A stretch of DNA of 64,000 nucleotides from Cubamyces lactineus (taxonomy: Eukaryota; Basidiomycota; Agaricomycetes; Polyporales; Polyporaceae). The notes under the pieces are model-generated. The model did no database searches and was not told the DNA's origin. It was given only the letters and a program-made list of their open reading frames with translations. Shown here in pieces: positions 27,965 to 59,640 of the stretch. How positions within the stretch are numbered: position 1 is the stretch's first letter; each line of letters opens with the position of its first letter. A program made the position numbers and the translations under genes. The stretch is taken from the NCBI GenBank assembly GCA_022376465.1, contig JACDTU010000037.1, forward strand, positions 19,163-83,162, given 5' to 3'.

Positions 27965-27975
27965 ACGAGTGGGAG

Positions 27976-36080: not shown

Positions 36081-36146
36081 AAAGACTCAACCCACTCCTC
36101 ACTCAAATATTTCCTCCAATTTTCTAAACATTTTCTGATATTCACT

Positions 36147-37439: not shown

Positions 37440-37473
37440 GGTCGAGGACGACCTTCAGCGGAGGGGGAGCTGA

Positions 37474-38108: not shown

Positions 38109-39003
38109 TCACGCACCAGAACCCTTCCGAACTGATCGACATTCCTTCAGATTACTCCCTGAAGACTTCGCCAATTTGCCTGTGCCGCTCCTGGTACGCG
38201 TCGAACCACTGGCGACCAGCGTGTAGGAAGCAGCCGAGCCCCCCGGCGCAGACCGCTGACGCGAGTGACCGCTTTGCGCCCGACGTCGCTTCAGAGAGCC
38301 CTCAGCGGCGCGAGAATTCAAGATGTCTGATGTGAGCTCCGAGTAGCCGCTTTGCAGCCCGACTTCATCATCCCGTAGGCGCTTAGGTGCTGACCTCACC
38401 TGCCCTTGCACGGGCGCAGGTTGAGGATTATCGTCGTCGGGGAAGAGGGTGGTCGTCCTGGTTTTATCGGGAACATAGGGAATGGACGCATCGTTCTCGG
38501 GCCAGTCGTCACGAGCCAGAGCCTCGTTGAAGATCTCGAGAACCGAATCATATGTCAACGGGACCCTAGTATTCATGTCGCCAAGCAGCGGGTCCTCGAC
38601 GATCGTGGCGCGTGAGACCATGATTTTGAACTTCGCCAGCAGCACAGTGAGCGGCATGTTGTTGGTGATCTCGAGACGGTGCCCGCCGAGGAATCCTCTC
38701 TTGATCGTGGTGGCTTGTGAATCGTTGCCAAACGGAAAGAAAGTGTCGCAAGCGGCCTTGCCGTTGGCGTGGTTGTGGGCGGTATGGCGCAGGACGATCC
38801 AGAGCAGTACCCAGAAGAACGATTCCAAGTCATGACGATAGGTATGTAACGCAGCTTTGGCCATAGGATCCAGAAGATCAATGGCCATGAAGTAGTAAGT
38901 CCCCTAGACGGTACAGGAGTCAGTTGCCGTGTACTATGTGTGGATTAACGACTTACCGTCCGCTCCTTGTGCTCATCCTCTGCCATCTTCTGTGCCGGCT
39001 CCA
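38109..39003 (-). pseudogene. FunK1 copy 2, 3' part (gene split by giant element)
   Basis: Two exons on the minus strand: 39003-38957 (EPAQKMAEDEHKERT) and 38903-38109 (GTYYFMAIDLLDPMAKAALH..., DLESFFWVLLWIVLRHTAH, a tail rich in Arg/Ser). This is the C-terminal FunK1 segment after the activation loop. The 5' part of the same gene lies at 59640-59441; removing 39004-59440 and one CGGCTCCA gives the continuous frame DPPELDPLEPAQKMAEDEHK, matching DPPKLHPLELWNKVPNIDEY in copy 3. Confidence 0.85.
38996..39003 (+). repeat. Left 8-bp target duplication CGGCTCCA of the giant element
   Basis: Exact copy at 59441-59448. The kinase codons TTG GAG CCG use one copy. Confidence 0.85.
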
Positions 39004-39316
39004 CAACTACTTCAGTTCCCCGGTTCGAACTTTGCCGTCTATTAGGCGGTGCCAGGTTCGAACCGGTTCCAACTTCGGCGCCAAAGCGAGGATAGTCGGC
39101 AAGCACTAGAGACCAGTTGGAACCGCACACAGCCCGGTTCTAACTCACCCTCGGTTCCAAGTCCAGCGCCGAAGGGAGCACAGTAGGCGACGCCAACACG
39201 CCAGTTGGAACCGCACTCCTGCGCGGTTCCAGCTTCCTCAGAGGAAAAACACGACGCATGGGTTTCGAACCCAAGCATTACACCAAACAGAAAGGTTTGG
39301 CCTACCATTGCGTCAT
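39004..39316 (+). repeat. Left terminal inverted repeat and GGTTCCAAC subterminal region
   Basis: Inverted match to 59078-59440. Conserved blocks: CCGTCTATTAG-CGGTGCCAGG, GGTTCGAACCG, TTCCAACTTCGGCGCCAAA, and the inner TTTCGAACCCAA. GGTTCCAAC/GTTGGAACC and variants occur about seven times. Confidence 0.8.
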
Positions 39317-39800
39317 TAGGACTAAGGACAGAAGCGCGCACGGTACAATGAGTTAGAAATCAACGTACTTGCGCAAGCACACCGAGGGCTGCCCAGACGA
39401 CCAAATACTATGGGCGACCATTTGCTAATACTATGGGGCTGTTAGTCGTCTTACAGGTTGGCATGGGTTGAATTCAATACGGCAGTGCTCAGTTTGCGTC
39501 CGCCTAATCCATATTTGTAGTCAGCGTAACGTATGCGGTACTTTGTCAATGGACAGGTTGATCGATCCTACATTGAGGCTATGGCGTGTTCCCAACCCAT
39601 CCAAGTGCGCAACCCGTCAGGTACAGGTGGTACACTGCCACCCCCGCCATCAGTCGATCGATCAGCCTTGTTTTCTCGGTATTACGCCTCTGCAAGAGTG
39701 AGTATCAGGCGCAAAGCAATATGGCTACGGTATATACGTCGTGTAATCTCTCAAGAAGGCACTATTGCAGGCATGAAATGCGCGTCAGTACCGCCCGGTC
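39317..39800. other. Inner part of left terminal inverted region, no gene
   Basis: 3' flank of the small minus-strand gene. Contains a block (near 39640-39680, read on the minus strand CTGATCGAT...TGATGGCGGGGGTGGC) shared with 58655-58690 at the other end. Confidence 0.5.
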
Positions 39801-40324
39801 CTAATCCATGGCCGGAATGGTGAACCCAGCCTCCGCTATGTCGACCGTGTCCGGAATCTCGATGAAATCGCCCGCCTTGATGTTGTAGTTGTTGCACAGC
39901 ATATTTGCAACCCTACAAGCGCATCCTGTCAGTAGAACGCCGTCACTTGTTGATAAAAGTAGCTTACGGGACGTATTCGTAAGGCCACCAACCGTCCTTG
40001 CCTGTAGGCCAAGGCACGACCAAATCGAGGTCGGCTCCGTGCAGCCCTAATGGCGGCTGCAATGTGATCCCGACGTTCGCGGCCCCGCCAACCGTCGTGA
40101 AACCAATATCTAATAGAGCCTATAGCGTGTCAGAGAGCGGACAATACGAGAATAGCCAGACCATACCTCGATGAACGCGTCAAAGTCCGCGGTCGCCGTA
40201 GCCCGTCTGTTGTCTCCAACGATGCTTTGGATGGCCTGCAGTCGCGTCAGTACCTCTAGTGTCCCTCTACCAATACCTCACTTACCACATATAGATGCGT
40301 TTTCAAGGCGTACTTCGGTGCCAT
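39801..40324 (-). CDS. Small paralogous protein A of the giant element, unknown
   Basis: Four exons: 40324-40286, 40235-40167, 40119-39968, 39912-39801; 372 nt, 123 aa, phases closing. Starts MAPKYALKTHLYV; core IGFTTVGGAANVGITLQPP and VPWPTGKDGWWPYEYVP; then VANMLCNNYNIKAGDFIEIP. Same exon plan as the gene at 58038-58600 (exons 2 and 3 have identical lengths, 69 and 152 nt) with about 70% identical residues. Lies 0.8 kb inside the left end, reading outwards. Conservation of frame in both copies indicates a translated protein; no known family recognised. A role in transposition or in the element's spread is only a guess from position. Confidence 0.75.
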
Positions 40325-41540
40325 TGCCAGCGTCCGGCTGCGTGCGAGTGTGTAGACGGAGGATGTGGTGACAGAGCGCGTCGCGCACCAGATTGCTTGA
40401 CGGTTGTGGATACGGTGCGCGTCTCGCGCTCTCGCGCGGGCACCAGATAGCCAGTCGCGCCAGTCGTGCGGGCGTCGCTCCTCGTTCTTTATACGAGCGG
40501 GTTCGTAGCAGTAAGTGCGCGGGTTGGGTTCTGACGACTAGCCGTTCCTTCCTTACCATTGCGCGCCCGCCGCCTGAACATTGCATCTCTCGTACGCCCT
40601 GACTGAACACGTCGGTCCTGGGCAGAGCATTTGTTTGCGACCCCACGCCCAGTCGCAATGTTGACCGAAGACGTGGTACCACGCCAAACGACGAGCAGCC
40701 ATACGCAAGGGCTAACGCGGCTTTTCCCAGCTGCCTAGACTCCACGTGGAGTCGCCTGACCACGGCACTAGTCGACTGCAAGGGAAATGCCTCGCGTCCA
40801 GGACGTCCGCGGCCAATGCAGACACATCGGGACACGGCGTACTCAACCCGTGCAACCTGGGCGCTGCAGTGAGCATACACATCGGGCGCAAATGTCATTT
40901 AACAGGCACAACACAACATACCCGTGTTTACTCATGCCCTGATCGCGCTGAGGGAACAGACGTCCTTGGGGCTGGAGGTGCTGACAGAAGCGGGCGCAGA
41001 GAAGGCGGACATTTCGGCCAGCCTGAAGGTCGTCAGCCGGTGCTTGCAAGGGAGAGAAGGCCGTGCAGATGATGCGCGTCGTCGTCGACCGTGTGCTTGG
41101 CTCGCGCGACTTTGAACCCCTCGACTGGAAGGCTCAAGGCAAGTCAGCGGGATCACCACTACCACCGCCGTGGAGAACTGACCTTGAATGAGCCCAGACA
41201 TATATACGCAAGCAGCTGACGTCCTGTGCACCGCAGACGGCGCACTACGCGAGTACTTAGACGTTGCGTGTGGCTCTAGCGTGATGTATGTTAGACTGAG
41301 AATGCCCCCGTAAACAACATTTGCATACCCAAAGTCCACCCATCACTTCAGCACATCACGCATCGTGCTTGACACCTGCGCCGCGCGTGAGACTGGATAT
41401 CTGGGCTAGCGACCAATACATACCGGGTACCCTATCTGTTCCACCTCACCTTGCCAATATGCGCGCAGGGACTGTGAGCTCAAACCTATGAGATCTGTGG
41501 TTGTTGCCACTTTCTTTTGGCCAAATTACACCGATGTACG
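40325..41540. other. Mostly non-coding; possible broken exon near 40930-41135 (+)
   Basis: The plus strand reads THALIALREQTSLGLEVLTE ...SLKVVSRCLQ and, after a one-base shift at about 41051, EKAVQMMRVVVDRVLGSRDF. It resembles one helical exon with a frameshift. No start, no flanking exons identified. The first 100 bp are the GC-rich promoter of the small gene. Confidence 0.3.
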
Positions 41541-43224
41541 TTAAACAATTTCGATCCGGTCCTTGCCCCCCTCACGCACAACGCTGTACCCCATGTTTCT
41601 CATCCGGACCTGCCATGGCACTCCTGTCCCGTTGCTGCTTCCCTGCACGAACAACTCACCAGCCGCGTCTTGGTTTCTCTTTGGATTACCTGATTGCCCC
41701 TGAGTAGCCTCACGCTCTAGTTTCACGACGCGCGACGCCGGACCTCCCGCATTGACGTCGCCTTCGACTTTCGGGGTGTTGACCTTGACCAACATCCCGC
41801 TCGGCTTCCTTGTGACATCAGCGTCGGCCGCAAGGATGCTGCGGCCCGCGCTATCATTCTCCACGAACTCCAGGACCTCGCCTAAGCCGTGCAAGAACAG
41901 CACGTCCGGGCGCCGAAGCAGGATCACTCGGGCGTCGGGGTCAAGTACGCCGCGCTCCTCTGGGGTCCCTTCATATGGCCGCCACTTCGACGTCGACTCC
42001 TGCCAGTAGCAGACAGGCCATTCGCCGTGTACCTCAGGCGGACCACGCCAATGAACGCCCTCGAGATCCTGGTCCTTCACGCGTGCTCTTTTGTGAATGA
42101 TCGGACCTTGGTTGTCCTGTCAGTAATCATGTAGTCAGCATCCGTCTGCTGCGCAGTAGATATGTACATACCCTATGCCAGATCGCGAAGTACACACTGT
42201 TCGGGGCTTCGCGTTCCAGAATTGACACCGGACTCTTTGACAGGGATAGAAACCGGGCACGGTCGCGGTCTTCGTACACGCGCAGCTCATGGCCAAGACC
42301 GGTGCAACGTAAGTCTTTCACTCGGACGAAGATCGTATCTTGCAGACCGATATCGACGTTGGCGGTGGCCCACGGGATCAGCTCCCATTGCCCTACGTCG
42401 AACTTCCAGTGCTCGAACGGCGATCTTGCCATTGATAGGCACGCCTCCTGGATCCAAGGGTAGTCGTCAAGGCGTATATGAGTATGTTGAGACAGCTGTA
42501 TCTTCGTCTTAATAGGGAATTCGTTCTCCTAGCTGTTGCCTTAGTCGTGAACCACAGGCATTATGGAGATGTGCGCACCTTATACCACAGGCAGATAGTG
42601 ATATTGCGCCCCCTTCCGACCTCTGACTTCTTGCTGTCCAAGACGTTGCTGACGATCTGTAGGCCACTCGCGTTAGATGAACAACGTTTCAGCATATCGT
42701 ATACGCACCCCCAAGGGCTTCGTCGACTTCTTGGTCTTTTTGGTAGTGCGTGTGTTCGCCTTCTTGGCCTCTCCAACGCTTCGAGACTTCCGCGCGCGTT
42801 CCAATCTGGCCTTTCTGGCATTGACACGCTTGGTCAAAGCCTCCTCTTCGTCCTCTTGGCGCTGCTTCTCGATCTCCTCAAGTTGCTCTTCGGGTGGCCC
42901 CCATTGGGTTGGGAAATGAGCACGCTTGCAACCGAGGCACTGGAGGAGAGTTAGCATCGCATTGTAACCGTCTAACATGCTCATCCTTACAATCATCGCC
43001 CATGCCCCTGCGTAGTCCGCTTTGTAGGTAAGCCGCGCTGTGAAGCATGCGGGAAAATGGCATCGGGGACAGATGACGGGCTTGGCTGGAATACGTTGAT
43101 TGGCCCCACGACGACAAAGCCTCTTCAGCGCGTCGCTCGCCTGTCGGCTGCTCGCTTCCACGCTGAGGAACTCAACCCTTTTGACCACATCGCCAGGTCG
43201 TAGGTATCCTCGGTAGATAGCCAT
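41541..43224 (-). CDS. Unknown cargo protein with zinc-ribbon cysteines
   Basis: Five exons (43224-42991, 42939-42709, 42656-42579, 42507-42172, 42116-41541), 1,455 nt, 484 aa, phases closing. The N-terminus has CPRCHFPACF and, after the first intron, CLGCK, a probable CxxC/CxxC zinc site (about residues 50-82). A charged coiled-coil stretch (EEQLEEIEKQRQEDEEEALT) and Lys-rich NLS-like KKTKKSTKP follow. The middle (FDVGQWELIPWATANVDIGL) and end (VPWQVRMRNMGYSVVREGG) show no known domain. TATA-like box 100 bp upstream. Apparently intact. Part of a run of four minus-strand genes inside the giant element. Function unknown. Confidence 0.7.
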
Positions 43225-43321
43225 GGCCGTACGCGGTGATTCGTGAGCGGGAGGGGAGGGAGGAGAGAGAAAGGGGGGAGAGACAACTAGGCGACAGACA
43301 AAACCTGCGCCTCAGCGACGC

Positions 43322-43329
43322 CTTTATAT
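43322..43329 (-). promoter_or_regulatory. TATA-like box of the 41541-43224 gene
   Basis: ATATAAAG on the minus strand, 100 bp upstream of the ATG at 43224; the leader between them is purine/pyrimidine-skewed, as in strong fungal promoters. Confidence 0.5.
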
Positions 43330-43641
43330 CTCCGCGCGCCCCTCCCATTCCGGGAATCCACGCGACGCCCTGCGGTTGGTCGGTTTACGGCCTTGGTTCG
43401 GCATAGCGAGGTGTAACGGGCCTTTGAAGTTGGAAACGCGAGAGCGACAGGATCGCGGTCGTCGCATGTGCCATCTTTAGGTATTATTCCGCTAAATGGC
43501 GCGAAGAATTCCTCGATTGTCTTGCTCGCGCCGCCGTTTCCAAGGCATGCCTCCTTCGCGAGACCATTGCTACTCTACGTAGGTAACGCTCTCATTCACA
43601 CACATGCCATCCCACTTCTAATGTGCCATTGAGATGCTCCC

Positions 43642-44762
43642 CTATGCCTTTCCGTCGTGCTCGCTCGTTGAGGTCCGTTTGCGCTTGACAACGCGGACTT
43701 CCTAAAGTGCCAGAGGTACCGGTAAGCCTGAGTGGAACACTTGGTAACTATGCCCAGAACACCTACCTCATCAGCAGCTACGGCCGTGTCGTCGCTTGCC
43801 ACGAGGTCAATGACCTCGACGTCGTCTTGGACTGAGCCCTGACATGATTCAGCCTATGAGCACGTCTCGGTGAACGATTTGCCTTGCACTAACTCCGAGC
43901 CTCCGCGCCGCTACAATGTGCTCGGCGCGTGCTATCTCCTTCGCGAGACCGATGGGCAAGCGGTTCTGGTCATGTCGCACAAGCAACAGTCGCGACTTCC
44001 CGTCAAAGACAAAGACCCGGTTGATATCTTGAAGCTTCCACTTGCACAATTCGTTGTCCCAACGCTTGACATGAGTAATGGCCTTCGGCTCGCCGCCCTG
44101 CGGGTCTTCTCTCAGGTGCTTGATGACTTCAGCGTGGTCGGCCAGCCTGACGTGAGCACGCGGTCCGACGTTCACCTCGAAGCGACGTGCATGCGAGGTT
44201 ACGTTCTGCTTATAGTCCAGTGAGTGTGATTCACTTGTCCGAGGCTAGTGCTTACCTCGTTCCACGCAGTGATCGTCAGAATGTGAGCACGAGCCACCTT
44301 GGGCAATACCACCTTCTCGATCTTGGGCAGGTCGTCGTGATCCGTGTTGAATGCCGCAAGTTCCACAAGCTTGAGCTCGTTTCCCAATGTAGGACAATGT
44401 TTTGTCCCCTGCAGCCGCATCAAGAAGGCAGGCGACGTGTTGGACACATCGAACGACAAGTTGACCAACCTCTCGAGCCTCCAATCTCCCTCCTCGACAC
44501 TCCAGAAGTCTACCCACGCCGTCGATACGGGGACACGCCTCGCCAGCCATGCGACTTCGCTGAGAACCAACGTGTCACCCATGGGGGCGTCCACGTACGT
44601 GGAGTCGGGCACCATGCCGCTCTGCGACCATGAGCACGACACACGATAGTCAGATGATGCAAGGCTCACCATCGTCCACAGGGTGAGCCGGACCTTGATG
44701 AGATACCGGGGTAGTTCATCGTTGTGTAAAACGTCGGCGGCGTCTGCATCCATGGCTGGCAT
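43642..44762 (-). CDS. Unknown cargo protein with C-terminal NLS
   Basis: Five exons (44762-44670, 44621-44256, 44205-43894, 43838-43767, 43701-43642), 903 nt, 300 aa, phases closing. Body: DTLVLSEVAWLARRVPVSTA, NLSFDVSNTSPAFLMRLQGT, HILTITAWNENVTSHARRFE, VFVFDGKSRLLLVRHDQNRL. The tail is acidic (SVQDDVEVIDLVASDD) followed by VRVVKRKR, a likely nuclear signal. No domain recognised; the architecture of a folded body plus an acidic/basic tail suggests a nuclear protein. Apparently intact. Confidence 0.65.
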
Positions 44763-45121
44763 CGTAGTGGTGGTGAGGGAACAGTGAGATGTGAATGGCA
44801 GGCTTGTCAGGCGACTTGGTGGTCGGAAGGCAAGCGACGTCGGTCGAAAAAAGGTCGCGGTTTTTCAGGAACACGTTCTCGTCCGGCCCCATCCGCCGCA
44901 TGTTATCGGTCCACCCATTGGTTCTCGGCGGCGCGCGCCATCGTTGCATTCTCGTCCTTTGCGTCGCGACCGGTGTAGGGAGAATATTTAGTCTACGAGA
45001 TCTATGTATGGCACGTTCATTACCCTCATCCCTTTGTCCTCCCTCGCCGCTCTGCATGTAGACAACATTCTATGTAACTACGTGTTCTGAAAGCCTTTGC
45101 TGCTTTCTCATTCCATAATGT
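44763..45121. other. No gene; promoter of the 43642-44762 gene
   Basis: 359 bp. On the minus strand it includes GAATATTTAG... and pyrimidine-rich tracts just upstream of the ATG at 44762; otherwise nothing recognised. Confidence 0.4.
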
Positions 45122-47141
45122 CTACTTCTTCGCCCGAGAGCCTTTACCGCCAGTGCTACATCACCACAATGTCAGTAGTTGTCGAAGATGACACAACGCG
45201 ACATACCCTGAGGCCTTGCGACCTCTCGCAGTCACCTTGGCAGCCTTCGTCGTCGATGCGGTAGCCCCAGCAGTAGCGAAACGCTCTGCGTGCCTTCGTT
45301 CCTTCAGCGGAAGGGCGCTATCACACCACATTAGCTTCTCCCAGCGACAATGGTATCATTCTCACAGTTCAATGCCTTGCTTGCGCAGAGTAGCCTTTGT
45401 ACTGCGACGAGGGCGTGAATTCCCTTCCTCTCCTGCAGGCAGCGCCGGTAGCGCAGCTGTGATGGCAAGTCAGAAAGGTACATTGCGGTGCATAACGTGC
45501 ACAACCAACCTTTCGAGGCGTCTGCCTTCCGTGGTGGGAGCCTGATCGTCAGTTGTCCAACAGGCCTCTCTATTTGCCTACTGGCCAACCCATCTCGGAC
45601 GTCTTGCGCTATCGACGCTTGCACCGACTCTTCCGCGAGCTGCGTCAACGTTGAGTCTCCCTCGTCAAGGTTGCTCCAGCGCACTGGTCCGCGCATAGGC
45701 AAACCAGCCGAGATCGGTTGCTCCAGGGAAATGTCGCGGTCCTGTGGTCCACATTCTGCGTCCATGCCTACGATAATGGCATCTAGCTCTGGTTCGCGTG
45801 CCATCGTAGGTGTCTGCGACACGACGTCGTCGTCGGCGTCCACATTCGCTGGTTGGCTCAAGTCCGCCGGCTCAGTTTGCGCTGGGTCGCGAACCGAATC
45901 GCTTTCGTCCTTATCGATGCCAGGTGTCGCCTTCTGTGCCAGGACATCGGTGTAGTCGTATGGCACGCGCAATGAGTCGCTTGCACGCATGGGGCCCCTG
46001 CATGCTGGTCCTGATCGTGAGGCATCTGGTCTTGATCGCGAGGAGTCGGCGTGCCATTCAAGTTGAGTGCTGCTCAGTGTTCATCAGTGCTTTGACAGTG
46101 GGGCTGAACGGTTTCACGTACCTGGGTTACATCCCTCGAGGAAGTGTAGGGCCCAATTCATCAGGTGCGCCTCGTCCCACCCCACCTCCTTCGCGAGAGC
46201 CTGCCAGAAGGTTTCCCCCTTACGATCCGTGTCCTTCGCGTAGCTGTGGGCATGGTTTCAATCTAGCGGGTACCGCTTTGAGAATACAAGCGCGCACCTA
46301 AACATGATCATGCGGCCTTCTTCATTTGGACCACCGAGGACCGCTGCACCGATCCAGCCGACTTCATCCAGGAGGTGTTGCATGATGCCGTGGTACCAGG
46401 ACGAGATAGAGGGTACTTTCCTGCTTGAGGCGTCAGCGAGAATGCATACAGTGCGAGATGATACGCACAGGGCTCGGTCCACCTCGTCCTGTCCACCTGC
46501 CTCATCTACTTCCTGTGTGATGCGCTCTTTGTTCAGCATCTGCGCTGAGCCGCAAAGGTGGCCTGCACTTTAGGATCAAGGCCGTGAAAGGCAGCTGCCA
46601 CGACACTCCTTCTGGATCCCACGTCCTTGGGCGCGTCAGGCACCAGTTCTTGTCGAAGAGGGCTTTGAGCGAATACGTCGACGGCGCCTACCCCTCGCCG
46701 GCGCTGAGGTGTCAATGCCGGAATGAACACCGAGGTATCCGACCCCTTCTTACGAGCGTCGTAATACTTGTGCTTCTTCAGCCACTCCTTCAGATCCTGG
46801 CGAAGCGCGTCAGTGGTTGGGCCTAATGAGATAGAGAGCCCACGTACCTTCTTGCGCCGCTGCATTCGCAGTGTCACGTCATTGACCGATTCTGCTTTGC
46901 GACGCGAGATGAACTTCTTCCGGTCAGCCGAAGCGTTCAACAGACGCCGCTTGAAGGTGTGTTCGCTTTCTGCTGGAAGGGGGTCCTTGAATCGAGTCTG
47001 GTAGTCGGGCCAAATGATGTCTACAGCCTTGACCAATTTTTTCTGGGAATTCGCCAAGGCGTTTTGAACGTCTGCTCGTGGATACTGTGATGCCAGCCAC
47101 TCCTTTTCCTCTTCCCAGAGAATCTCGTTTTGCTTGCCCAT
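45122..47141 (-). CDS. Unknown cargo protein (long, Lys/Arg-rich N-terminus)
   Basis: Starts MGKQNEILWEEEKEWLASQY; residues 1-120 are helical and basic (FKRRLLNASADRKKFISRRK), like a DNA-binding or KDZ-associated helper region. Later exons read ISSWYHGIMQHLLDEVGWIG with AVLGGPNEEGRMIMF, then YAKDTDRKGETFWQALAKEV with LMNWALHFLEGCNP, then an Asp/Glu-rich stretch (45331-45990), and finally a Thr/Lys/Arg-rich tail ending GGKGSRAKK (TAG at 45122). Final exons: about 45390-45450, 45207-45320 and 45122-45157. The junction after 46540 needs a weak donor or is a frameshift, so the model is incomplete there. Family resemblance to widespread unnamed basidiomycete proteins is an impression, not tested. 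Confidence 0.5.
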
Positions 47142-47466
47142 GGTTCAGAGCGTGGTCAAAGGGAGGATTGCAGCGGTCGGGAGACAGGTTCGAAGTGCGA
47201 GGAGGCGCAAGCCAGGCGAGGCGTCGCCGGCCACCAAGAACAGGAAGACTCATCACGAGGCCCCCGCCCACCGGGCCCACTGTTTGGGGCAGACACCTTC
47301 ACGTCGATCGTAGCTGTGGCCACTCGGCTGTGATGTGGCCGGTCAGTCAGCGGAACGTTCAATAACACGAGATATAACTACACAAAGACAGGCTTATTAC
47401 TGCTTCCTACGAGTCCAATATTACACAAGATACGCTGTGGGGAACATTATAGGCGCAACCGGGAGC
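47142..47466. other. No gene seen
   Basis: 325 bp between two minus-strand cargo genes; no coding or repeat signal recognised. Confidence 0.4.
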
Positions 47467-50400
47467 CTATGGAAATGCGCGACAAAATTCTGAACATAGA
47501 AATGAATGGCCTGCTGCTGTACGTGAGTATACAATCCAACATCCCAAAGCTCTGTCGAACAGCGCGACAGAGGTCCGCAGGTACTTGGTCCATCGTGTCA
47601 TCAGCGTGATGAACGCACGCAAGGACGGTATGCACTCCCGCCACTGCGGGTCACTTCCTCGCCGCCAATGAAAGGTTGTCACTTCTCTGGGGTGCGGCAG
47701 CACGGTGACGATACCGGACCGCTGCCCCCATACGGCAGATATGTCCGCCTCGCGCTGCCATCGATGCATGATTGGCCACTGGTCGCGAGGGACCATGACA
47801 CGATCGAGGGCAACTACATCGCATCGGAAGTTGATTTCGTGCGCTTCCCATATCAGACGCATGCGCAGCATGACACTTTGCGCGGCTAGGTTCTTGTCCA
47901 CGTCGATATCGTCCATGGTGATCACCTGGGCCTCGTTGTAGGAGGAAAGGCACGCGACGCTCCCGAAGAGCCGCGCAATGGCATTCCTGTCCTCATAGCG
48001 TCGTTTGGCCTTCTTCTCCTCTGACGCCTTGCCCTTGGCAACAGGGCGTCCTTTGGGGTGTAGTCTCCCCACAACGCCGACCTCCATTCCGCGATGGTAA
48101 GCGCCTTGCCATCGACCGTAGGATCGAAGAGGCGCGCCCGGCAAAACTCGCGGATGCGCACGAGGTTGTGCAGATATCGGAATACCTTGTCGTCTCGCCG
48201 CGCGCTGTTAGGATTCGGAGCGTTGTTCGGTAGAGCAGCGGATGAAGGTATTGTATCAAGGAGATAGGGCGGCGGATAGAAGTACTGTACGGCCGCGGGG
48301 ATTGCTTGAGCAAGCCAATGTCTTGCAAGGCTGTAGCCCAGGCGTGCGGTATATGGTAGAATGGTGAGGCCGTATACATTCAAGATGGATGTTGAGCTCC
48401 TGAAGATGACCCGCCAGAGGGCGTGGCGCTTGACTGGCCGTCGCGCGGAGCCTGGCAACTATGAATCAGTGTTACGTAAGCGACAAAACAGAGGGCACCT
48501 ACCAGTTTGTGGCCTCCCCGGTGGACTTTTTTGCCTGGCGTGTTTGACCCTTTCTTGCTCTGTGGACGCGCGTGGACTGGCAACGGACAAATCCTTGCTG
48601 CCCACCAGCGAATCGACCCGCGCACGTTTTGACTCCGGTCCATCTTCAGGCTTATCAACAGTGATCGTTCGAAGCCCTTCGACTGTAGGTGCGCAAAGTT
48701 CACGGCTCACGGCGACGACCATCTGAACATCCCAGTTGAATGTCAGATTCATGGCGCCGACTCGCTCGGTCGGGAGATGGTGGATGGGACAGCCGAGGGC
48801 GTCGCGGAGAGCTCTTCCTCCACAAGTCTAACGGGGACTACTTTCCACACCTTGACGTCCTCGAAAGTGGCTGTAGGAGAAAGACAGGTACGCCCACCGT
48901 ACCAAGGAGAGGCCGATGTCCCTTCGTTGACAAATGCACCCAGACGTCGAGAACGTGCGTACTGTAGTCCAGCGTGCTTTCGAGGCGTGGTAAGACAACA
49001 CGCAGGTACACGTTGAGGCCAGCCATCTCCAAGCACAGCCGCTGTACGTGTGCCGCAACTGCGATCGAAATGTCCACGGTTGCTGGTAAAAGCTCATGCG
49101 ATCGACACACTGGCGGAGGATGAGCACGAGCTGTCGACCATACTCCAATCTACGGGCAGGCTGGCCAGCGATCATGTCCAGCCGCATGATAGCTGCCTGC
49201 GCGGCATCCTCCAACGCGTCCATGAGCTGCCCACGAATCTTGCCAAGCCCGCATAGCAGCCCTGCGGTCCACCTCCCAGTCTCCAGGCCGTAAAGTCCTC
49301 CACACTCCCGCGCCCAGCCTCCTTCCTCCTCCGTATCCACACGAGGGATGCACGCCTTGTGCCACATTCCCGGAGTCAGCAGCTGCGGCCAACGAGAGTA
49401 TTCTCGCTCGCCCCATCGGCCGTCAGAGTAAGTTTTGATGATGGCTCGTTCGATCGGATACTGAGGTATCCATGTCGCATTCGGGAGGTGACGCACATGT
49501 CAACAAAGCCGTCTTGAGACCCAACCAGCCCTCGAACGGATGAGTTACCGCAGGCGCTACAGTACGTCAGCAAATAGCTAGTTGATATCAACGCGATACT
49601 TACCAGGCTCATCCCGGTGTAGGGACGCAATGCTGTTGGTGGTCGGGCCCCGTCGTGTTTATGTCGGCCTGCTCGAGGTGCTGTCTCATGGATGATCGCT
49701 CTCGAGTGGCACTCGAGGATTGCGGTGTGACCAGCGGACTTCGACGTGGGGTGCGTCGTGCAATTCGGTTATTGGCGCAGTACGGAGAGGATGCACCTTG
49801 AACGAGGTGTGTCTCCACTGTCGGACCTCTTCCATACGAGGACTATCCGATGGTGGCTCCATAGTCATCATGCCTGGGCCTGCTGTTGTTGACACAACGG
49901 CCGATGGTCCTGTCAAAGGAATGTTGGCCGCCGCGGTTGGCACGGCATCGGGTCGCAACAGTGTTGACAAGCTTGATGCCCCACTAGTCGTCGCAAACGG
50001 AATGTGGAGTACACCGCTACAAGACCGGTGCTGAGTAGATGCGGGGAGTGTAGCTGGCGGATTGGGAAGGATAGCGGGCTGCGTAGGGGGGGCAGCGGCT
50101 CCAGGTGAGTGACGGACAGATGACCGATCAGATCTAACGCTGACCTCTTCTCTCTGCTCGTGGATGCCGCTCCTCGGCGCGGCGACGGTCATCGGAACTT
50201 CGGCTAGGGGCGTGGGCTGCGTAGGGGATGGGACGGCGGGGCCAGGTGAGAGTCCAATCGATGACCGTTCAGATTTAACGCTGACCTCTTCTCTCCGCTC
50301 GTGGTTGCCGCTCAACGGCGCTGTGAGACTCCCATGGGCTCCCGCCGATTCCGAAGCCGACTCATCAGAGCTCTCGCCCCTTGGTGGATGTCCCACTTGT

Positions 50401-50681
50401 GGACGCATGGACATGGTGAGCACGCCAGAGCGAAAAAGGCGTGTGCCCTGTGAGGACACCGGCTGGGACAGGATGGAGGAGATGTCGAAGGGCAAATCCT
50501 CACGCGATGACCGGGAGAACTCCTCGTTCGACGAGGTCTCAGACTTTGGGCTCCGATTAGGAGAGCGAGGACGCACCACATCGGATAACTTCTCATCATC
50601 TTGAAGTGTGTGATTGGGCGGCGGGTGCAAAGGACGAGGCGACCCTGCATCAGCTGGCAACTGAGCACTTGTTGATGCCAT
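47467..50681 (-). CDS. Unknown multi-exon cargo gene, probable frameshift near 48050
   Basis: The first exon (from 50681) encodes a Ser/Pro-rich, probably disordered region with an internal repeat (HERREEVSVKSERSSIGLSP and HEQREEVSVRSDRSSVRHSP). Downstream frames read NATWIPQYPIERAIIKTYSD with TPGMWHKACIPRVDTEEEGG and GLYGLETGRWTAGLLCGLGK; LNVYLRVVLPRLESTLDYST; VGAMNLTFNWDVQMVVAVSR; VQYFYPPPYLLDTIPSSAAL with FRYLHNLVRIREFCRARLFD; then, one frame over, KGKASEEKKAKRRYEDRNAI with IWEAHEINFRCDVVALDRVM, stopping at 47467. The change of frame around GDYTPK (about 48050-48080) has no usable intron, so this copy may be disabled there. Function unknown; exon limits approximate. Confidence 0.45.
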
Positions 50682-52214
50682 CGTACGTACTGTATGGGCG
50701 ACTACAATCAGCCATGAAAGTCATCCCAACCTCCACACACCTTTCCAATCGCCGGGGAGGTGTCAATGACCAGATAGGGGTCACGAAAGGCAAGGGGCAG
50801 AGTTTCGTTGGGTACGCGTGAGCGCAAGGACGTCGTAGTGTTTTGAGGCAACAAGATGACGGCAGCGTGTCTTGCACAAAGATGTCTTGCTCGAAGGAGT
50901 GCCGGGGAGAGCAGTTCGTCGACGCGTTGCCGCACGAACTGTCTCAGATGGTAGGCTGAGCTAGAGAAGTGGCAAGGGCAATGTTACCCGCCTACGACTC
51001 TGAAACTCGACTGCAGAAAGAGTTTGGTGTCAAGCAGAGGGAGAGCAAGGATCGCGAGGCAGCGCGAGTGTGAGTGATGGTGGAAGGAAAGCAAGAGATA
51101 GATTCGGTCCGATCACGAGGTGTTGCTGGCTTTCATGGCGATTCTCACGTACAACACTCCGGATTCTCCGCGTTTAACTCCCTCGTCATCGCTCTGTCAA
51201 TGCTTCAAGTAAACGATAAGTAACAAGTAAGTATGTTGTTGTGAACTCCGCTCGAATGCCCTCGAGTCGAATTCACTCAAGTCCACCGTTGCCAATTAGT
51301 GGACATCGACCTTTGCTTCCTCCCCCCACTGCGCTTCGATCATGCCCACTGACTGGTTCTCACTCCCCTCCACTTCCTCCCCTCCAACAGACGAGACAAC
51401 GACAGTATTGCAGGTCATATGACCGTTGCATACTGCACGTACCTCTGATGTTCACGGTGTGCTGGTTTACCCAGACCCGACCAGAGCAATGGCATAGCCA
51501 GGCTCAACTCCCATCGACTCTCCGTCACTCTTGATGTTTGAAGGCTGTATCCCTTCTGGTGGAACCTACGCGCACAAGCCTTGGGGCGTGCGTACCGTCT
51601 CGAGGCGTGGATGGAATGCTGGATGGGCTAACGATCGACCGACCGACGTGAGTCGCACCTTCGCGATCTCACATGCATTCTAACTGACAGATGGACGCGT
51701 GCAGGGCCACATACGCTATCGCTGCGTTTAGCGATACCTCCGAATTCAAACACATACTCTAACGGTTCCTTTAACACGCAGTAAGTGTATTGTGTAGCAC
51801 AGCGCCGTACATAGTGCTAACAAAGTCTTGTTGTGGCGTCGCTGAAAGCCAGTATTACCCCACATTGGTCGTCCCTCGATCAACTTGCCCCTGACACCCA
51901 TGAATTTGCTTCCGTTTGCCATTGGGAGCAAATCAACTCCTCGGTCATACCGCCGGTCGAGAAGTGCGCCTCTGGAAAAATGCTTTGCCTTATATCGATC
52001 ACCATCACCAATCCTGAGGGTGCCGCTGGGTGCCGCCGCCTTGCTTACAACGGTACGGAGTACGGCGAGAATCCACGTTGGTAATACTCTACGAATGACC
52101 GACCATTGGACTTTGAGACTACTCGAAAAGTGTTTCATAAATGTATGGACTGTGTATCGTGCATGTGTTTTAGTTTGAGTTGCCAAGCATACTTGATGTA
52201 TCGCTAGGAGTCGC
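50682..52214. other. Intergenic region between divergent cargo gene and transposase
   Basis: Promoters of the minus-strand gene (starts 50681) and the KDZ gene (starts 52215) must lie here. A 223-codon minus frame (51746-52417) and an 83-codon plus frame (51833-52084) overlap each other and show no domain. Nothing else recognised. Confidence 0.4.
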
Positions 52215-55200
52215 ATGGGCGATCGCGATCTGAACGAGGACGAGGACAACCGGCGGGCGCCGCATACTGGGCGCAAAGTTTGCAGAAACTTTCTTCGCGC
52301 ACGCATCCAGCTACGGACGTACGCTATGCCAGAGACCCCTAGGAAGAAACGAAAATTGGCAGAAGGCATGCAGCAATGGGGGGGCTCCAACGCGACCTTT
52401 AACATAACCTCTACCAACGGCCAGAGTCAGCTACCTCTAAGCCCGCGACGTCTTCGCCCCCTCCTGCGTGCCTCCGGATCCCAGCGAGACAGAGTTGTCG
52501 TGGCTCCCTCTACAACGCCGTCGACCTTCTTTAGCCCGAGCGGATCGACATCCACTCTTACCTGGCTTGCGATGCCCCCACTGCCCGCTCCCGTTTTTCC
52601 TGCTACCTATGTCTCCCAAGGCGCGCCCTCGCTACACTCTCCCCCTCTTTCCCAGCCTCCACTACCCTCTCTTTCCCCCGTCGTGCCATCTGTGGCGAGC
52701 GCGGAGGCCCGTGAGACTAGAGAGGTCACGCTGTCTACCAACGCGGACATCTATGCGCTTCCGACCGATGCGTTCGACCCACTCGAGGATCTACCGATCG
52801 ACCACTCAAGAACAGGTGGTGATGCGGCAAGCGAGCCAGCGAGGGAGGGGGAGAAGAATCATGGGAAACGCGGGAAGGCAAGGGTGAATAATACCATTGT
52901 GAGTGATATCTTGCAAGAGCGCACGGCACATACTCATCCACGCAGAAACCATCGGATCGCTTCGCGGAATTCACCAAGGACCATGCCAAGAACGCCCTGG
53001 AAGCTATTCTTCAATACGAAGTAGGACCTCAACGGGAGGATACATGCGCGGCCTGCGACCAGCACCTCCCTATGCCCGCGGAGGGTGCGCCGTGCCGTCT
53101 TCGCTGCTATGACTGCCTAGGGAGGCCGCACTATTGCGAAACGTGTTTGCTGCGGACGCACAGACGAACACCGTTCCACAGAATCTGGCAGTGGAGCACT
53201 GAGGATGGATTTTGGCACAAGACGACGACGGGAGCCCTTGGGATGAAGCTGTGGGGAGGTCACAACGGGGCGCCGTGTCCTAACATCACCCGAGACCCGC
53301 GGATGATGGTGTTCGTTCACGAACACGGCGTATCCAGCATGGCATGTAGTTTCTGCGAATGCGCGGAGATGGCCGGCGGCGAGCAGCTTGTTACCTCCGA
53401 ACCTCTGCAGTTGGTTGAGATGGGCCTGTATCCGGCCTCGTGGAAGCAACCGCGGACGGCATACACGATCACGCTCCTCGAATCTTACCATCTGCTGTCG
53501 TTGCAAACACATTGCAGTGCAGAGGACTTCTATACATATCTTCGACGAAAGACGGACAACGTTGCGCCAAAGACTGTGCCGGTAAGTCCAGGTTCATTTG
53601 CATCGGCTGATTGCATTAAACATTATCCTAGGACCGATATCGCGAGTTGAGCAATAGCGCGCGAGAATTTGCGTACCTCCGACAGTGTAAACGGGCGGGT
53701 GAGATGCCCGGCAAGACCACGACGAGGGGAAGCCTGACGGTGAAGTGCCCCTGCTGCCCTCAGCCAGGAATCAACATGCGCGTAAACTGGAAGGATCGTT
53801 GCGCTGATTACTCGTATGTGCGATTGCTACATTGGCGCGACGTTGCGGCGTGAACTCACAAGCCTGCAGCTACTTAGACGCCTTGTTCTACTCCATCGAC
53901 GGCAACTTCCGTCAGAGCCAGCGTAACAAACCTATGGACAAGAACGACGTAGCGTTGTCGCGTGGCGCGGGATACTTTGCAGATGTCGATGACTTCCGAG
54001 AGTACGCATCAAAGATCGGGAAGCCTGAACCAGAGGTAAGCAGAGTGATGCGATCTACGTTGGCGGGACTGACAGTGTGTAGCTCACGACTTGCCACAAA
54101 TTCGGCGCCGCAGGATATGGCGGTCATAACGGCAAAGTCTCGGGCATTATCGCCCTTGCCTGCCGCCATATGTTTATGTTGCCGGGGTCCATTGTGGATC
54201 TGAACAAACGCGAGGCGTGCGTGTGTTTCATCAACGTCGTGTATGATCATTAGCACTAACTGGCCACCACACAGCTATCTGTACGTCGATTTCGCGGTGG
54301 TATCCGGAATGCAACCATACGTGGGATTGCGGCTTGTCAAACAAACGTACGACATCGCCTGCCAGTATCTCATTAACTTCGGGCGGCGCCTTGAACACTG
54401 GAAGCAGTTATGTCTCCCTCTGGCATCCATCACTACCTTCAACCTCCCTCGAACTGAGGGTGCCATCGGTCTTTGGCACTCTCTTGCGCACCAGATCCTT
54501 TGCCGCATATTCAAGTCGCCCGAGTTCATGCCAGGGTCGGGGAGGTACGAAGGCGAAGGTATGGAGCGACTATGGGCTATCACCAACGATGTGAGCGCGC
54601 GCACGAAGGAGATGACATCGGGACACCGACACGATGTCCTCAACGACGTGTACTCGGACCTGCATGTGCGCCGTGTGCACAACATCGGTATGATGACTCT
54701 AAGACGCGTAAATTGATCCACTGATGCCACTGGTTTCAGCACATATGTTGGAGACCTCCTTGAACGAGGCCGAGCGGTTCCTGCAGGAAACCACCGAGGC
54801 GCTGGAAAAACTGGAACAGAGCGTATCAAACGACAAACTGACAGAGTGGCGCCGTGACGAAGCGAAGTGGTTGCGGGACGTGGTTGATTTCCGTAATCAC
54901 GAGCACATGGAGGATCCATACAGTCCGCATGTCGACGCTGGTCAGTAGCTGGAGTGACTCGGTGACAGCGCCGTTGTTTATGCTTTCTGTGTAGCCCTAT
55001 CTGAGGCCGGGGCCTTAAAGGTGTTGAAAGAAGACAAATCAAAGACGTCTGGCCTCCAGGGGGTCGGAATGGTGAGCGCCATCCAGGAGATGATCGAAAT
55101 CGAGCGCGAGAAGTGAGCCTGCTTTCTCCTTCTCCTTGATGACTCATCACTGACCACTGACTAGGCTGCGACTGACGAAAAAGGTACGAGAAGCTGACCC

Positions 55201-56417
55201 CTTAAAGACTAGGCAAAGGAACGCACTGGGAAGGAGAGTCCTGGCGCTACAGGGACAGGCGGAGGTGTGTCGAAGACAGTACGAGCGGTTTGTTGGAGAG
55301 CGAGTCACCGCGGCGGTGGAGGACATTCGCCTGGCATGCAGAAGTTGTGGCACGGAAGGCGCCAGTGTGGACGCGTTTCCTCTCTCATGTGATCGTGGAG
55401 GGGAGACCAGCAACGACTCGGGCACAGCGACGGACACAGGTACGCGACATTCAGTTAAATTATGACATCACTGCTCCCTCATGATCCAGGCCCGGAGCTG
55501 CTCGAGGATGCGTACTTGTCAGAATACCTGGAAATGCTCCATGCTATCCATGTGGAACTGCCATCGTACTACACAACTGGGATCAGAACACACCCAAAGA
55601 TGGAGGAGGCTGTGTCAATTGAGCAGAAGCTACGCGAAGGACAAGCCAAGGACGCACTAGACGAGTTGCGTACACATCTGACAGCATTGTATAGCTTGGA
55701 AGATCTGCGCGGGCAAGGCACCGGACAAGCGCACGGGCAGCGTGTCAAGGCGTTGGCAGCGACGGAGGTGGCGATCGGACATCAGGCGCGGGACGAGTAT
55801 CGTCGTGTGCGAAAGGTGCTAGTGGAACTGGGAATGCCGGAGGACGACAAGACCTTTCGCATCCTCACAGATGAGGATGCTAAACCGTTCATCGTCTTCA
55901 GCCACCAGCATCGTCGTGGCGACAGTAAGAGGACGGGGAGCTGGTTATGGGAGGACTTCTCGTTTGCGAATGACCAGGGCGACAACGAGGTGAAGGAGTA
56001 CATGTATCACAGTGAGTTCGACACTCTTTAGGAAGCGCGATATAACTGACCAGCGACAGAGATTCGTCCGTTCTGGTTTAGGAAACGAGCTGCGAGAGCA
56101 AGATGGCAAGAGGAGGTGTACATCAAACGAGAGGAGATGTACCGGACTACTCTGTTCTTTGAGTACTACCGCGATCGCTGGTCTGCGCGCGGGATGGATG
56201 CTGCAGAGGATGGAAGGGAGGGAGCCATGGTGTACGCTCGACGGTAAGTGATGCAAAAACGACTTGAACAGACACTGACCCGTACTGTCCAGACAGTCGC
56301 ACAGATATGCGCGACTGCTGGCCGATGCCAGACACGCCTTCCCCTCGGATGTCAGCATGGTACGTAAGGGCCAATGTGGCTGTGAACGTGAATTGACAAA
56401 CATAGTACAGGGTATAG
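52215..56417 (+). CDS. KDZ (Kyakuja-Dileera-Zisupton) transposase with CxC cysteine cluster
   Basis: Thirteen exons: 52215-52898, 52946-53581, 53632-53813, 53870-54035, 54083-54216, 54275-54687, 54740-54940, 54995-55112, 55165-55439, 55490-56011, 56060-56243, 56293-56359, 56406-56417. Total 3,594 nt, 1,197 aa, every phase closing and no internal stop. The N-terminus is basic and disordered (PRKKRKL). A cysteine cluster CAACDQHLPM...CRLRCYDC...HYCETC precedes the conserved WQWSTEDGFW (about residues 250-310, CxC2-like). A second ribbon, CPCCPQPGINMRVNW, follows. KDZ core: IDGNFRQSQRNK (first Asp), TTCHKFGAA, ALACRHMFMLPGSIVDLNK, YVDFAVV (second Asp), YDIACQY, GRYEGEGMERLWAITND (Glu) and TKEMTSGHRHDVL. 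The C-terminus is coiled coil, then IRPFWFRKRAARARWQEEVY. Likely active transposase of the 39004-59440 element. An alternative start is ATG 52327. Confidence 0.92.
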
Positions 56418-58037
56418 GCTTCGCTAAGTAAGGCAACCAGCCATAACATACGACAATTGCATAGCCGCATAGCAGGCACCGCGCTCCTAGAGCAACAAAG
56501 ATGAAGTAGAGGAGGGCGTGCCTGATGATAGGCGGCTTCAAGCCCACCCGCGACGTTCCAACCCGTACGCGGTGTCATCCCTCGCTCTTGGGTGCCTAAT
56601 GAGCGTTTGTGCCAATACTAAGGTATGCGGTAGATCACACAGATTGCGATAGAGGCGCGACGCATGTGCATATGGGTGATTGCACTGTTCTTTGTAAGCA
56701 TGAGAGCATGCTTCTAGGGCCCAGCTGACTGAGCAAATGCATAGCCTGGCGCGAGATGCAGTCTGAATGGTGGTAAGCCAACACACGGTCCCAAGTCCGT
56801 ACGAGCGGTCCCAAGTCCGGGCGCTTATTAGCAAGTCCGTGCGGACAATTCACCACTGGGCCACGGCCTCTGAACCGAGAAATCGGGAACTGGGGCAACG
56901 TCGACTGCCCAGGGAGTTCAGTAGGAAGGGCCGTGGATCAACCATGTTGGTCGAGAATTGGACTATCTGGAGGAGCTCGCACGGTCGCGCGCAAACTGCT
57001 CTCAGCTTCAAATAATGCTGGCCACATCGATCCCAGTGACCTGATGCCAATCACCTTCAGCTACGACATGCGTGCATGTATCCACCCACCGCCGCCAAGC
57101 CATGCATACTTGGTTTCGCGCGTCCCGTCAAACTGGCAGACTGCACCGTCTACGTGACCGACCTCGCACACGACGGGAACGGGGTACATATGGCGAAGGT
57201 GAGCCCAAGGCACACAGACGACCTCTATTGTAGCCCAAGGCACGGTAGACGCTACGCTCCCTCACTCTAGCGCGACAGGGACCGGTTCATAGAGCATTCG
57301 CGATGCTCGGACAGCAGCAGATAGGAGCGTTGGATCGAGAAGCACAGGGCTCATGAGGTCTAATCACCTGTGGGCAAGTATTCGGCCCTGATTTGTCTGG
57401 GTCGCGAGATCGTCATACCCTCAAACGCCGCGCCATCGCATCTGAACCACAACGCGCGCGAGGGCCTCGACGAAGCGACGACCTAGCTGTCGACGTTGCC
57501 AAAGCGCTGTGAGTTGATTCAGACATCATCTCGCAGCTATTTCACCAGGTTAGAACGGTACATAGCGACCAGAGTGTGCGGGATGAATCGGTAGATGTTA
57601 GCTACGTATGAGGTCCGTGCGGTCAGGAGGAGGGATGTTGGGTCGTGCTTGGCGTGCGGTGTAGGAGTGTTCGACATGGTGAGGTTTCTGACATTTTGTG
57701 AGTTGAGGCGCGTTCGTCCCAACGGATACATGCTCACCGCGCGCAGAGTTGAATATTCGGGCACATGGCTCTTGTGTACAGGGTGGGTAAGCGCCGCGTT
57801 GATGGCGCACATTTATTCAAGATTCAACAGGCGAAGACTGAGCGGCGGCCGAAATACTGGCGCAAGTACGCGCAGGGTGAGGACGAAGAATCGAAGGAGG
57901 AACGGATGCGCGAGCCTGGCGTTGCGCCAGGGTTACGTAGGTAGGCGCGCGAGCGCGACGCGCTCTCTGGCGCCCGCGCGAGAGCGCGCCTTGCGCTCCC
58001 TATCCACAGCCCTCAAGAACATCGCCCATACCTTGCA
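56418..58037. other. No gene seen; short direct repeats
   Basis: A GGTCCCAAGTCCG unit occurs at 56787 and 56808, with a third partial copy (GCAAGTCCGTGCGG) at 56831. GC-rich sequence with CGCGCGAGAGCGCG near 57955-57985 resembles the promoter of the small gene at the left end (near 40425). A 154-codon plus frame (57595-58059) lacks domain features. Confidence 0.45.
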
Positions 58038-58600
58038 ATGGCACCCACATACGCCCTGAAAACGCATCTATATGTGTGAGTAAGTATATCAACTGGCGCA
58101 TGAGGTATTGACGCGCCACAGGCAATCCACAGCGTCATTGGAGACGACAGACGAGCTACGGCGAACGCGGACTTTGATACGTTCATCGACGTACGCTACG
58201 AAATTCTCATCTTGTTCGCGCTCTAACAAACCACAGGCCCTCGTAGAGATTGGATTCAAGACGATCGGTGGGGCGACCAACGTCGGGATCACGTTGCAGC
58301 CGCCACTGGGGTTACATGGGGCTGAACTCGATCTGTTTGTGCCTTGGCCTACGGCAATGGACGGTTGGTGGCCCCACGAGTATACCCCGTAAGCTACTGC
58401 TATTGACGGCGCGCTACTAACATCTGAGAATTACTTGTAGGGCGGCGAATATGCTCTGCAATAACTACAATATCAAGGCGGCCGATTTCATCAAAATCCC
58501 GGATGACGTCGATATGGTGGGGATTGGCTTCGAAATTCCAGGGAAGAATAGTAGCGAGCGTGTGTACGGATGTATCTACGTTGTGTTCGTAGCGTCTTGA
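58038..58600 (+). CDS. Small paralogous protein B of the giant element, unknown
   Basis: Four exons: 58038-58073, 58122-58190, 58237-58388, 58441-58600; 417 nt, 138 aa. Starts MAPTYALKTHLY; core IGFKTIGGATNVGITLQPP, VPWPTAMDGWWPHEYTP and AANMLCNNYNIKAADFIKIP; ends VYGCIYVVFVAS. Mirror-image partner of 39801-40324. Its first donor is changed (GTGTGAGT after codon 12), making exon 1 one codon shorter. Copy B is longer at the C-terminus (15 more residues). Function unknown. Confidence 0.7.
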
Positions 58601-59077
58601 TGCAATACTGGGCGTATGTACTGTGCTAACGCTGCCATTCTTTCGAGGAGGATCTCGCTGATCGATTGAACAAGTGATGGCGGGGGTGGCGGTGTATTAC
58701 CCCTGTGCCTCAATGACGATGGAAAGACGGTAGGCATCGGGCTACTCATTCATGCGTTATGTAGACTACTAACAAGAACGTTCTGTACTGTAGAACGTCA
58801 TTGGGGTCATGAGACGAGGCACCGTTTCGAGTAACACGACATGGCAAAGCGAGCAGCAGCTCATCCAGATCACTTCGACACGCTATGCATGGCGTGAGGT
58901 CGGAGCTCTTTGCCTTCTCACTGACCCGCTCTTACCTTTGACTGTGCAGATGCCCCCGTATCGATGCAAGCCTCAGACGTGCGTTGTCGGCCACCCAGAT
59001 AGCCCATGGAGAGGTTTTGCGGCCCTCGCACAATTTGACGACTGGTATTGCACGAGTATCTAATGTACTTAAAGCCC
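58601..59077. other. Inner part of right terminal inverted region
   Basis: Shares CTGATCGAT and TGATGGCGGGGGTGGC blocks (58655-58690) with the left end in inverted orientation. A possible further exon (MAGVAVYYPCASM, then GVMRRGTVSSNTTWQSEQQL) is readable but not joined to anything. Confidence 0.4.
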
Positions 59078-59440
59078 TGATGGCGGAGCGGTCGGCCAGA
59101 CGATTGTGTTTGCTGCAACGTTTGGGTTCGAGACTGCGAGCGACGCGTTTTCCTCGAGCTCCTGAGGAGGGGGTTGGAACCGGACGCGAGTTGGAACCCG
59201 GACCTGTGTGCGGTTCCAACTCGCCTCCAGTACTCGCCGCGACGCAATTGCGTACTCAGTTGGAACCGGACGGCAGTTGGAACCGGACGGCAGTTGGAAC
59301 CGTACAGAGGTTGGAACCGGACCTCGTGCCAACTTGTCTGTAGTGCTCCCGCGATGTTGGTTTGGCGCCGAAGTTGGAACGGTTCGAACCTGGCACCGTC
59401 TAATAGACGGCCAGGTTCCAACCGGGATACTGAAGTCCCT
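59078..59440 (-). repeat. Right terminal inverted repeat and GTTGGAACC subterminal region
   Basis: Inverted match to 39004-39316; at least seven GTTGGAACC-type motifs, including a tandem CGGCAGTTGGAACCGGA unit (59269-59298). The outer end reads GGGATACTGAAGTCCCT, then the target duplication. Confidence 0.8.
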
Positions 59441-59448
59441 CGGCTCCA
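59441..59448 (+). repeat. Right 8-bp target duplication CGGCTCCA
   Basis: Exact copy of 38996-39003 on the far side of the element. Confidence 0.85.
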
Positions 59449-59640
59449 AGGGGTCAAGCTCAGGAGGATCAGAAGAACATTCGGAGGAGTGGGGGCATTG
59501 GCAGCCATTGAGCTATAGTCATAGTCATGAAGGACGCCTGTACAAGGCTTGATACGCCGCGGCCGGTCGACGATCGGGATGTTGCCACTGCGAGTCACAT
59601 CGCGGTGTAGCACGCCAGCCCGCATATCTTAGCCACATCA
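59441..59640 (-). pseudogene. FunK1 copy 2, 5' part (fragment)
   Basis: Minus strand reads RAGVLHRDVTRSGNIPIVD (catalytic loop), GVLHDYDYSSM (DFG-like motif), then PELDPLEP before the element, with one frame slip around 59480-59500. Nothing of the kinase N-lobe is recognised upstream (beyond 59640), so the gene was already damaged or truncated. Confidence 0.75.

Follow-up and report, generated by a model that had tools for sequence, protein, structure and literature searches.

Evidence for a large KDZ transposon with inverted, gene-bearing ends and 8-bp target-site duplications in Cubamyces lactineus

The element, its borders and its target

We analyse a 64,000-nucleotide stretch of the genome of the mushroom-forming, wood-rotting fungus Cubamyces lactineus (Polyporales, Polyporaceae; the window), which corresponds to contig C31:19163-83162. 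It contains, at 39004..59440 on the plus strand, a 20,437-bp element that encodes a KDZ transposase; the last base of the window, 64000, is the end of the contig, 4.5 kb past the element. Based on the comparisons reported here, we conclude with high confidence that the element is a large KDZ DNA transposon bounded by terminal inverted repeats (TIRs), which is mobile as a single unit of about 20-22 kb and generates 8-bp target-site duplications (TSDs).

The element lies between two 8-bp repeats CGGCTCCA, the left TSD at 38996..39003 and the right TSD at 59441..59448, both annotated without strand. The window has four occurrences of CGGCTCCA and shuffling predicts 2.97, so the word is not rare. 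The improbable part is its exact placement at both element ends, about 1.5e-5 per site. Just inside these borders, the left TIR (39009..39123, plus strand) is 84% alike to the right TIR (59326..59436, minus strand), and a broken inverted homology extends inward to 40460 on the left and 57953 on the right.

The sequence interrupted by the element is that of a FunK1 kinase. A scripted joining of the two flanks gives SSDPPELDPLEPAQKMAEDEHKERT, a single frame through the junction that goes on, after one predicted intron, as GTYYFMAI... The joined flanks align with a FunK1 paralog outside the element (60337..62650, plus strand) in a DNA homology of 735 columns at 60.8%, and the paralog has no insertion at the corresponding position. 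With the paralog as the yardstick, we take the joined flanks as the empty site for the copy in the window (E1 from here on). The interrupted FunK1 is annotated on the minus strand in two pieces, the C-terminal part at 38109..38995 and the upstream part, which includes the HRD region, at 59449..59622. The 1,152 bp past the junction show nothing that corresponds to the first ~430 residues of the paralog, and the insertion site has no more than about the final third of FunK1; the target was therefore a FunK1 fragment (a C-terminal piece). Its frame in E1 shifts once about 30-40 bp past the junction, near 59486, where the twin copy on contig C40 has one extra base. Beside the fragment, 60337-64000 contains one FunK1 gene and, from 63361, the first part of a second one, which is cut by the contig end.

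A preliminary description of this locus had proposed that a KDZ element of 20.4 kb, with inverted ends and an 8-bp target duplication, holds several genes besides the transposase, and that its removal restores FunK1 in frame. The repeats at both borders, the 84% TIRs, a match to the Pfam KDZ family PF18758 and the alignment of the joined flanks with an uninterrupted paralog all bear this out. It had also placed the insertion in a kinase gene, which is accurate as to the interrupted FunK1 sequence and has to be amended as to the target, a partial FunK1 copy. Its account of the KDZ transposase gene as complete with 13 exons is too firm: our spliced model has 12 exons, and a count of 13 is neither confirmed nor excluded. 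The paired end genes, the end-confined motif arrays and the C40 twin described in the following sections are additions to that account.

Copies of the element, their ends and mobility

We searched for both end sequences across the whole genome, and the site counts that follow are lower bounds. At least seven sites have an end, and at least five of them have both ends enclosing a KDZ gene, as the preliminary description had led us to expect. The five paired copies are E1 in the window (C31), E2 (C40), E3 (C30, 21.9 kb), E4 (C20, 44.8 kb) and E5 (C43, 30.7 kb). The sites on C17 and C18 have one end each, and the genome search for KDZ matches nothing at either. Matching border 8-mers are found in four of the five paired copies: those of E1 (CGGCTCCA/CGGCTCCA) and E5 (GATTTCAG/GATTTCAG) are perfect, and those of E3 (ACATGAGG/CCATGAGG) and E4 (TGGGGTAG/TGGGGTAT) have one mismatch each. 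The expectation that other copies would have 8-bp duplications and the same genes thus holds for these duplications and for the genes G2-G5 and T, which are common to the copies; it fails for the duplication of the C40 copy, the flanks of which do not match.

In each of the six main aligned blocks, the identity between E3 and E4 is 99.3-99.9%. Because these two near-identical copies occupy different sites with their own duplications, the whole unit moves. Five insertions distinguish them: E4 has four, of 1.0, 4.7, 17.2 and 0.5 kb, and E3 has a single one of 0.7 kb. Copies longer than 20-22 kb owe their extra length to later insertions. The 17.2-kb insertion of E4 (L008-L010, C20:58.7-75.9 kb) is flanked by 7-bp cgagatt duplications, has CA..TG ends and contains distant KDZ matches; the 4.7-kb insertion has similar ends. 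E5 contains a retroelement open over 1,220 codons that resembles one in the window. Apart from insertions, E2 is collinear with each of E3, E4 and E5 over the part of the element between about 2.4 and 19.6 kb, and the left 2.4 kb largely differs between the compared copies, except for the T gene and the end itself.

In all five paired copies, the left end starts CAACTACTTCAGT, the reversed right end starts AGGGACTTCAGT, and the TIRs are 78-115 bp long and 84-88% alike. The ends also carry arrays of a short motif, GTTGGAAC/GTTCCAAC/GTTCGAAC, annotated in E1 without strand: five copies in the left array (39023..39211) and ten, partly at 17-bp spacing, in the right array (59173..59422). In E1, 15 of the 16 motif copies are near an end, all within 268 bp, and one is in the interior. 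For the other paired copies, the motifs within 282 bp of an end number 14 of 15 (E2), 10 of 11 (E3), 10 of 12 (E4) and 13 of 15 (E5), and the single end on C17 has nine copies. Outside the elements, the window has three in 43,563 bp, and the flanks analysed for the other four copies have three in 46,129 bp. The end arrays are plausible transposase-binding sites.

E2 is a special case. It matches E1 from exactly 39004 to the end of the window, 25 kb at 99.7% with the right flank included, and its left flank is different. Over these 25 kb the two copies differ at 68 places. Eleven are substitutions and 57 are gaps of 1-2 bp, and in 56 of the 57 gaps the bases are absent from C31 and present in C40. 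Since E1 is without single bases that are found in C40, some frames look broken in E1 alone, and the reading frames of E1 are better judged from E2 or E5. The left flank of C40 ends in a repeat, four other copies of which (on C17, C42, C7 and C5) continue from TAAATACT into TGAGTCC. These four uninterrupted copies indicate that E2 combines the left junction of a second insertion with the right side of E1. The shared right flank may have arisen by recombination or by misassembly. As a true recombinant, C40 would result from crossing-over between element copies and would join the left side of the second insertion (target TAAATACT) to the right flank of E1, an explanation that we regard as possible and somewhat doubtful. 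It fits the left flank of C40, which stops precisely where the four other repeat copies run on, and the 11 substitutions, all of which are at 39026-57170 with none from 57170 to 64000. The same picture is expected, however, from an assembler confused by near-identical 20-kb copies; C31 ends 4.5 kb past the element and is without many C40 bases, like an unpolished contig end, and among the right ends found with flanks read, none is joined to the other half of the repeat. Under misassembly, the C40 left flank would be expected to lead, past the element, into TAAATACTTGAGTCC, and under recombination into CGGCTCCAAGG.

Several other repeats lie in the window to the left of the element. At 29116-38015 there is a long terminal repeat (LTR) retroelement with identical 542-bp terminal repeats, which ends about 1 kb before the KDZ element, has a close relative inside E5, and encodes a polyprotein that we take to be of the Gypsy type. 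A second LTR retroelement at 22191-28510 has 535-bp terminal repeats 99.4% alike and a polyprotein presumably of the Copia type. At 18477-22165 there is a 3.7-kb near-perfect palindrome (98%) of satellite-like repeats; by eye, repeat peptides like those of the palindrome are found within the two larger insertions of E4.

The transposase, the shared genes and the twin end genes

The KDZ transposase gene (52326..56243, plus strand), in its spliced model, matches PF18758 with 135 bits (3.4e-39) over positions 2-214 of 217, and a CxC2 cysteine domain with 89 bits (3e-25). The element thus has the KDZ domain and the associated CxC cluster by which the KDZ superfamily is defined. The minus strand between the left end and the transposase encodes five further genes: G2 (41541..42528, borders approximate); G1, an open frame with cysteine pairs (42673..43311), which may belong with G2; G3 (43642..44762, borders taken from the E2 model); G4 (45126..47141, borders approximate); and G5, from a helical protein family (47467..50720), which is open over 751 codons in E5. 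In both G4 and G5, E1 is missing bases that C40 has. Among the gene models scanned, that of KDZ is the sole one with recognised Pfam domains, the matches of G4 being weak and below the cut-off, and a six-frame Pfam scan of most of E2 (all but L003:1-2899, where the central and 3' portions of the KDZ gene lie) finds nothing beyond CxC2. Elsewhere in the genome, C5:264369-267100 and C24:192638-195369 have equal distant KDZ match scores, and are perhaps a recent copy or duplicated contigs. At C33:11261-22247 there is a KDZ gene 59-69% identical and split by about 8 kb, where the genome searches for the ends and for G5 match neither.

KDZ and G2-G5 are under purifying selection. Between E2 and E3, the ratio of nonsynonymous to synonymous divergence (dN/dS) is 0.03-0.17 for KDZ, 0.14-0.20 for G2, 0.09-0.17 for G3, 0.15-0.29 for G4, and 0.09-0.17 for G5 outside its N-terminal part (0.50). 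For G1 dN/dS is 0.46-0.72 overall, which is weak constraint, and there are stops in E3 and E4.

The small multi-exon gene T is present in two copies of 123 aa each, T-left (39804..40324, minus strand), which reads outward to the left end, and its inverted twin T-right (58038..58549, plus strand), which reads outward to the right end. T is found in all five paired copies, reading outward about 0.8-1.4 kb inside each end; the right T of E4 reaches further in because the 0.5-kb insertion cuts it. E5 has one further T, and a lone copy is at C43:641371-641690. The database relatives of T are eight proteins, including six from C. lactineus and one from Trametes cubensis. The dN/dS of T is 0.17-0.27 over 10 pairs of the five copies without stops. 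The left T of E2 is nearer to the right T of E3 (dS 0.31) than to the right T of E2 itself (dS 0.73), which suggests that end modules have been exchanged between copies.

The G5 family extends beyond this genome. Of 35 database matches, four are from C. lactineus, 21 from other named species, which we take to be Polyporales, and 10 are others; six other species have 2-4 copies each, on contigs of different length. G5 has a confident predicted fold, with no match among the solved structures searched. In more distant relatives, G5 adjoins KDZ at C30:14.4-19.1 kb and G4 at C16:0.4-3.6 kb, and because these neighbours persist at about 40-60% protein identity, parts of the gene block are old.

One can propose that the extra genes are passenger cargo of a simpler KDZ transposon, as in Starships, without a role in the life cycle of the element. 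Recognised domains are found in the KDZ gene alone, G1 is little constrained and broken in E3 and E4, there are unrelated insertions inside copies, and relatives of G4 (with our own G4 model as the query) are found in C. lactineus only. Against this stand the collinear block of E2 with E3, E4 and E5, the purifying selection on G2-G5 and T, and the conserved G5-KDZ and G5-G4 neighbours, and we consider the proposal improbable. Being common to the copies and constrained, G2-G5 and T look like genes of the element and not like passengers. The term cargo, used in the preliminary description, says too much for genes with such a record, which includes the association of G5 with KDZ or G4 in relatives.

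Mechanism, classification and significance

In the mechanism that we propose for the KDZ transposon, the KDZ/CxC2 transposase would recognise two distinct ends (CAACTACTTCAGT... and AGGGACTTCAGT...), probably by binding the arrays of the short palindrome-like motif within the last ~280 bp of each end. Staggered cuts of 8 bp would be made in the target, where the element would be joined by a presumed cut-and-paste chemistry, and repair by the host would leave the 8-bp duplication. G2-G5 and the twin T genes would be lasting components of the element, probably aiding transposition, regulation or escape from silencing. Like other cut-and-paste elements, it would combine a transposase with a pair of distinct ends and a target duplication of fixed length. 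Its unusual features are its size, a constrained set of unnamed genes, and ends that bear genes.

Several observations weigh against this reading. No transposition has been observed, and mobility is read from the comparison of copies. The duplications of E3 and E4 each have one mismatch, and the border 8-mers of E2 do not match, its right flank being that of E1. There is one stop within the CxC stretch of E5, E3 and E4 have stops in G1 and an in-frame stop in the left T gene, and insertions interrupt G2 and the right T gene of E4. G1 is weakly constrained (dN/dS 0.46 for E2 vs E3, at the low end of its range), as is the N-terminal part of G5 (0.46-0.54 against E3/E4), and in the E2 vs E5 comparison both part of G3 and CxC have a value of 0.31, which for CxC comes from two changes only. 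Finally, dS is 0.08 in CxC and reaches about 0.7-1.2 in the KDZ core and C-terminus (E3 compared with E2/E5); as it varies between 0.08 and more than 1 over the length of the element, the copies are mosaics.

One could also read the block as ordinary host DNA, or as a segmental duplication, with a coincidental border repeat. This reading draws on the commonness of CGGCTCCA (three expected in the window) and on the 25 kb that C31 and C40 have in common, and is scarcely credible against border 8-mers matching at four sites, two at 8/8 and two at 7/8 (about 3e-17 for independent equal base frequencies, C40 excluded), two distinct ends that are the same in all five paired copies, and the empty sites given by the joined flanks of E1 and the C40 left-junction repeat; E3 and E4 already contradict it.

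The captain tyrosine recombinase of a Starship sits at one element end. In the six-frame scan of E2 (L003:1-2899 excluded) only CxC2 matched Pfam, and the TIRs and TSD around a KDZ gene speak against a Starship. The published systems compared here are represented by excerpts of the cited papers, and our statements about them apply to those excerpts. Starships (PMC12134995) are also large fungal elements that move several genes; they use a tyrosine recombinase and belong to Pezizomycotina, whereas here we have a basidiomycete, KDZ, TIRs, a TSD and constrained shared genes. Within KDZ, Zisupton and Dileera have TSDs of 8 bp (PMC12730594), the length found in four of the five paired copies and not in the C40 copy, and TIRs enclosing the transposase, as described for Zisupton (PMC12730594), are found in all five. 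Kyakuja has 7-bp TSDs, CA..TG termini and no TIRs (PMC12730594), and is ruled out for this element by its 8-bp TSD and TIRs. The 17.2-kb insertion of E4 agrees with Kyakuja in its 7-bp duplications and CA..TG ends (PMC12730594). The element is accordingly a KDZ transposon by domain, is not Kyakuja by its TIRs and 8-bp duplication, and by these sequence features would be either Zisupton or Dileera.

The KDZ1 element of Cryptococcus neoformans (about 11 kb, 241-bp TIRs, 8-bp TSDs, CxC1; PMC12810828) is alike in having a KDZ catalytic domain with a CxC domain, TIRs and 8-bp TSDs. It differs in being shorter and in its CxC1, and the excerpts mention neither twin end genes nor a conserved multi-gene block. 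The TET-positive fungal Kyakuja, Zisupton and Dileera elements (PMC12730594) also combine an extra gene with defined TSDs; here there is no TET/JBP Pfam match in the gene models or in the six-frame translation of E2 (L003:1-2899 excluded), a scan that distant TET-like types would escape. The composite-like KolobokP transposons (PMC9587614) share a DNA transposon nature, long terminal modules and a second protein, but their terminal modules are direct instead of inverted repeats, and their second gene is internal. KDZ TIR motifs have been reported (PMC8290104). Since KDZ elements with TSDs are published (PMC12810828, PMC12730594), delimiting one is not new in itself, and the remark in the preliminary description that this is rarely possible for KDZ elements was too strong. 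In the literature searched, we recognised no description of this gene block or of the twin end genes.

We can envisage, as a tentative extension, a hitherto unrecognised multi-gene KDZ class across Polyporales. In such a class, a conserved group of new proteins (G5, G4 and others) would co-evolve with the transposase and form a complex for transposition or anti-silencing, and the inverted ends would be exchangeable gene-bearing modules (T plus arrays). The C. lactineus elements make up a family of large and recently mobile KDZ transposons, resolved to the base, in a mushroom-forming fungus, for which near-identical copies, empty sites and defined ends are at hand. They suggest that the unnamed G5 protein family of Polyporales is carried by transposons, and they make the end arrays, T and G5 targets for studying how a transposase moves 20 kb and whether it needs accessory proteins.

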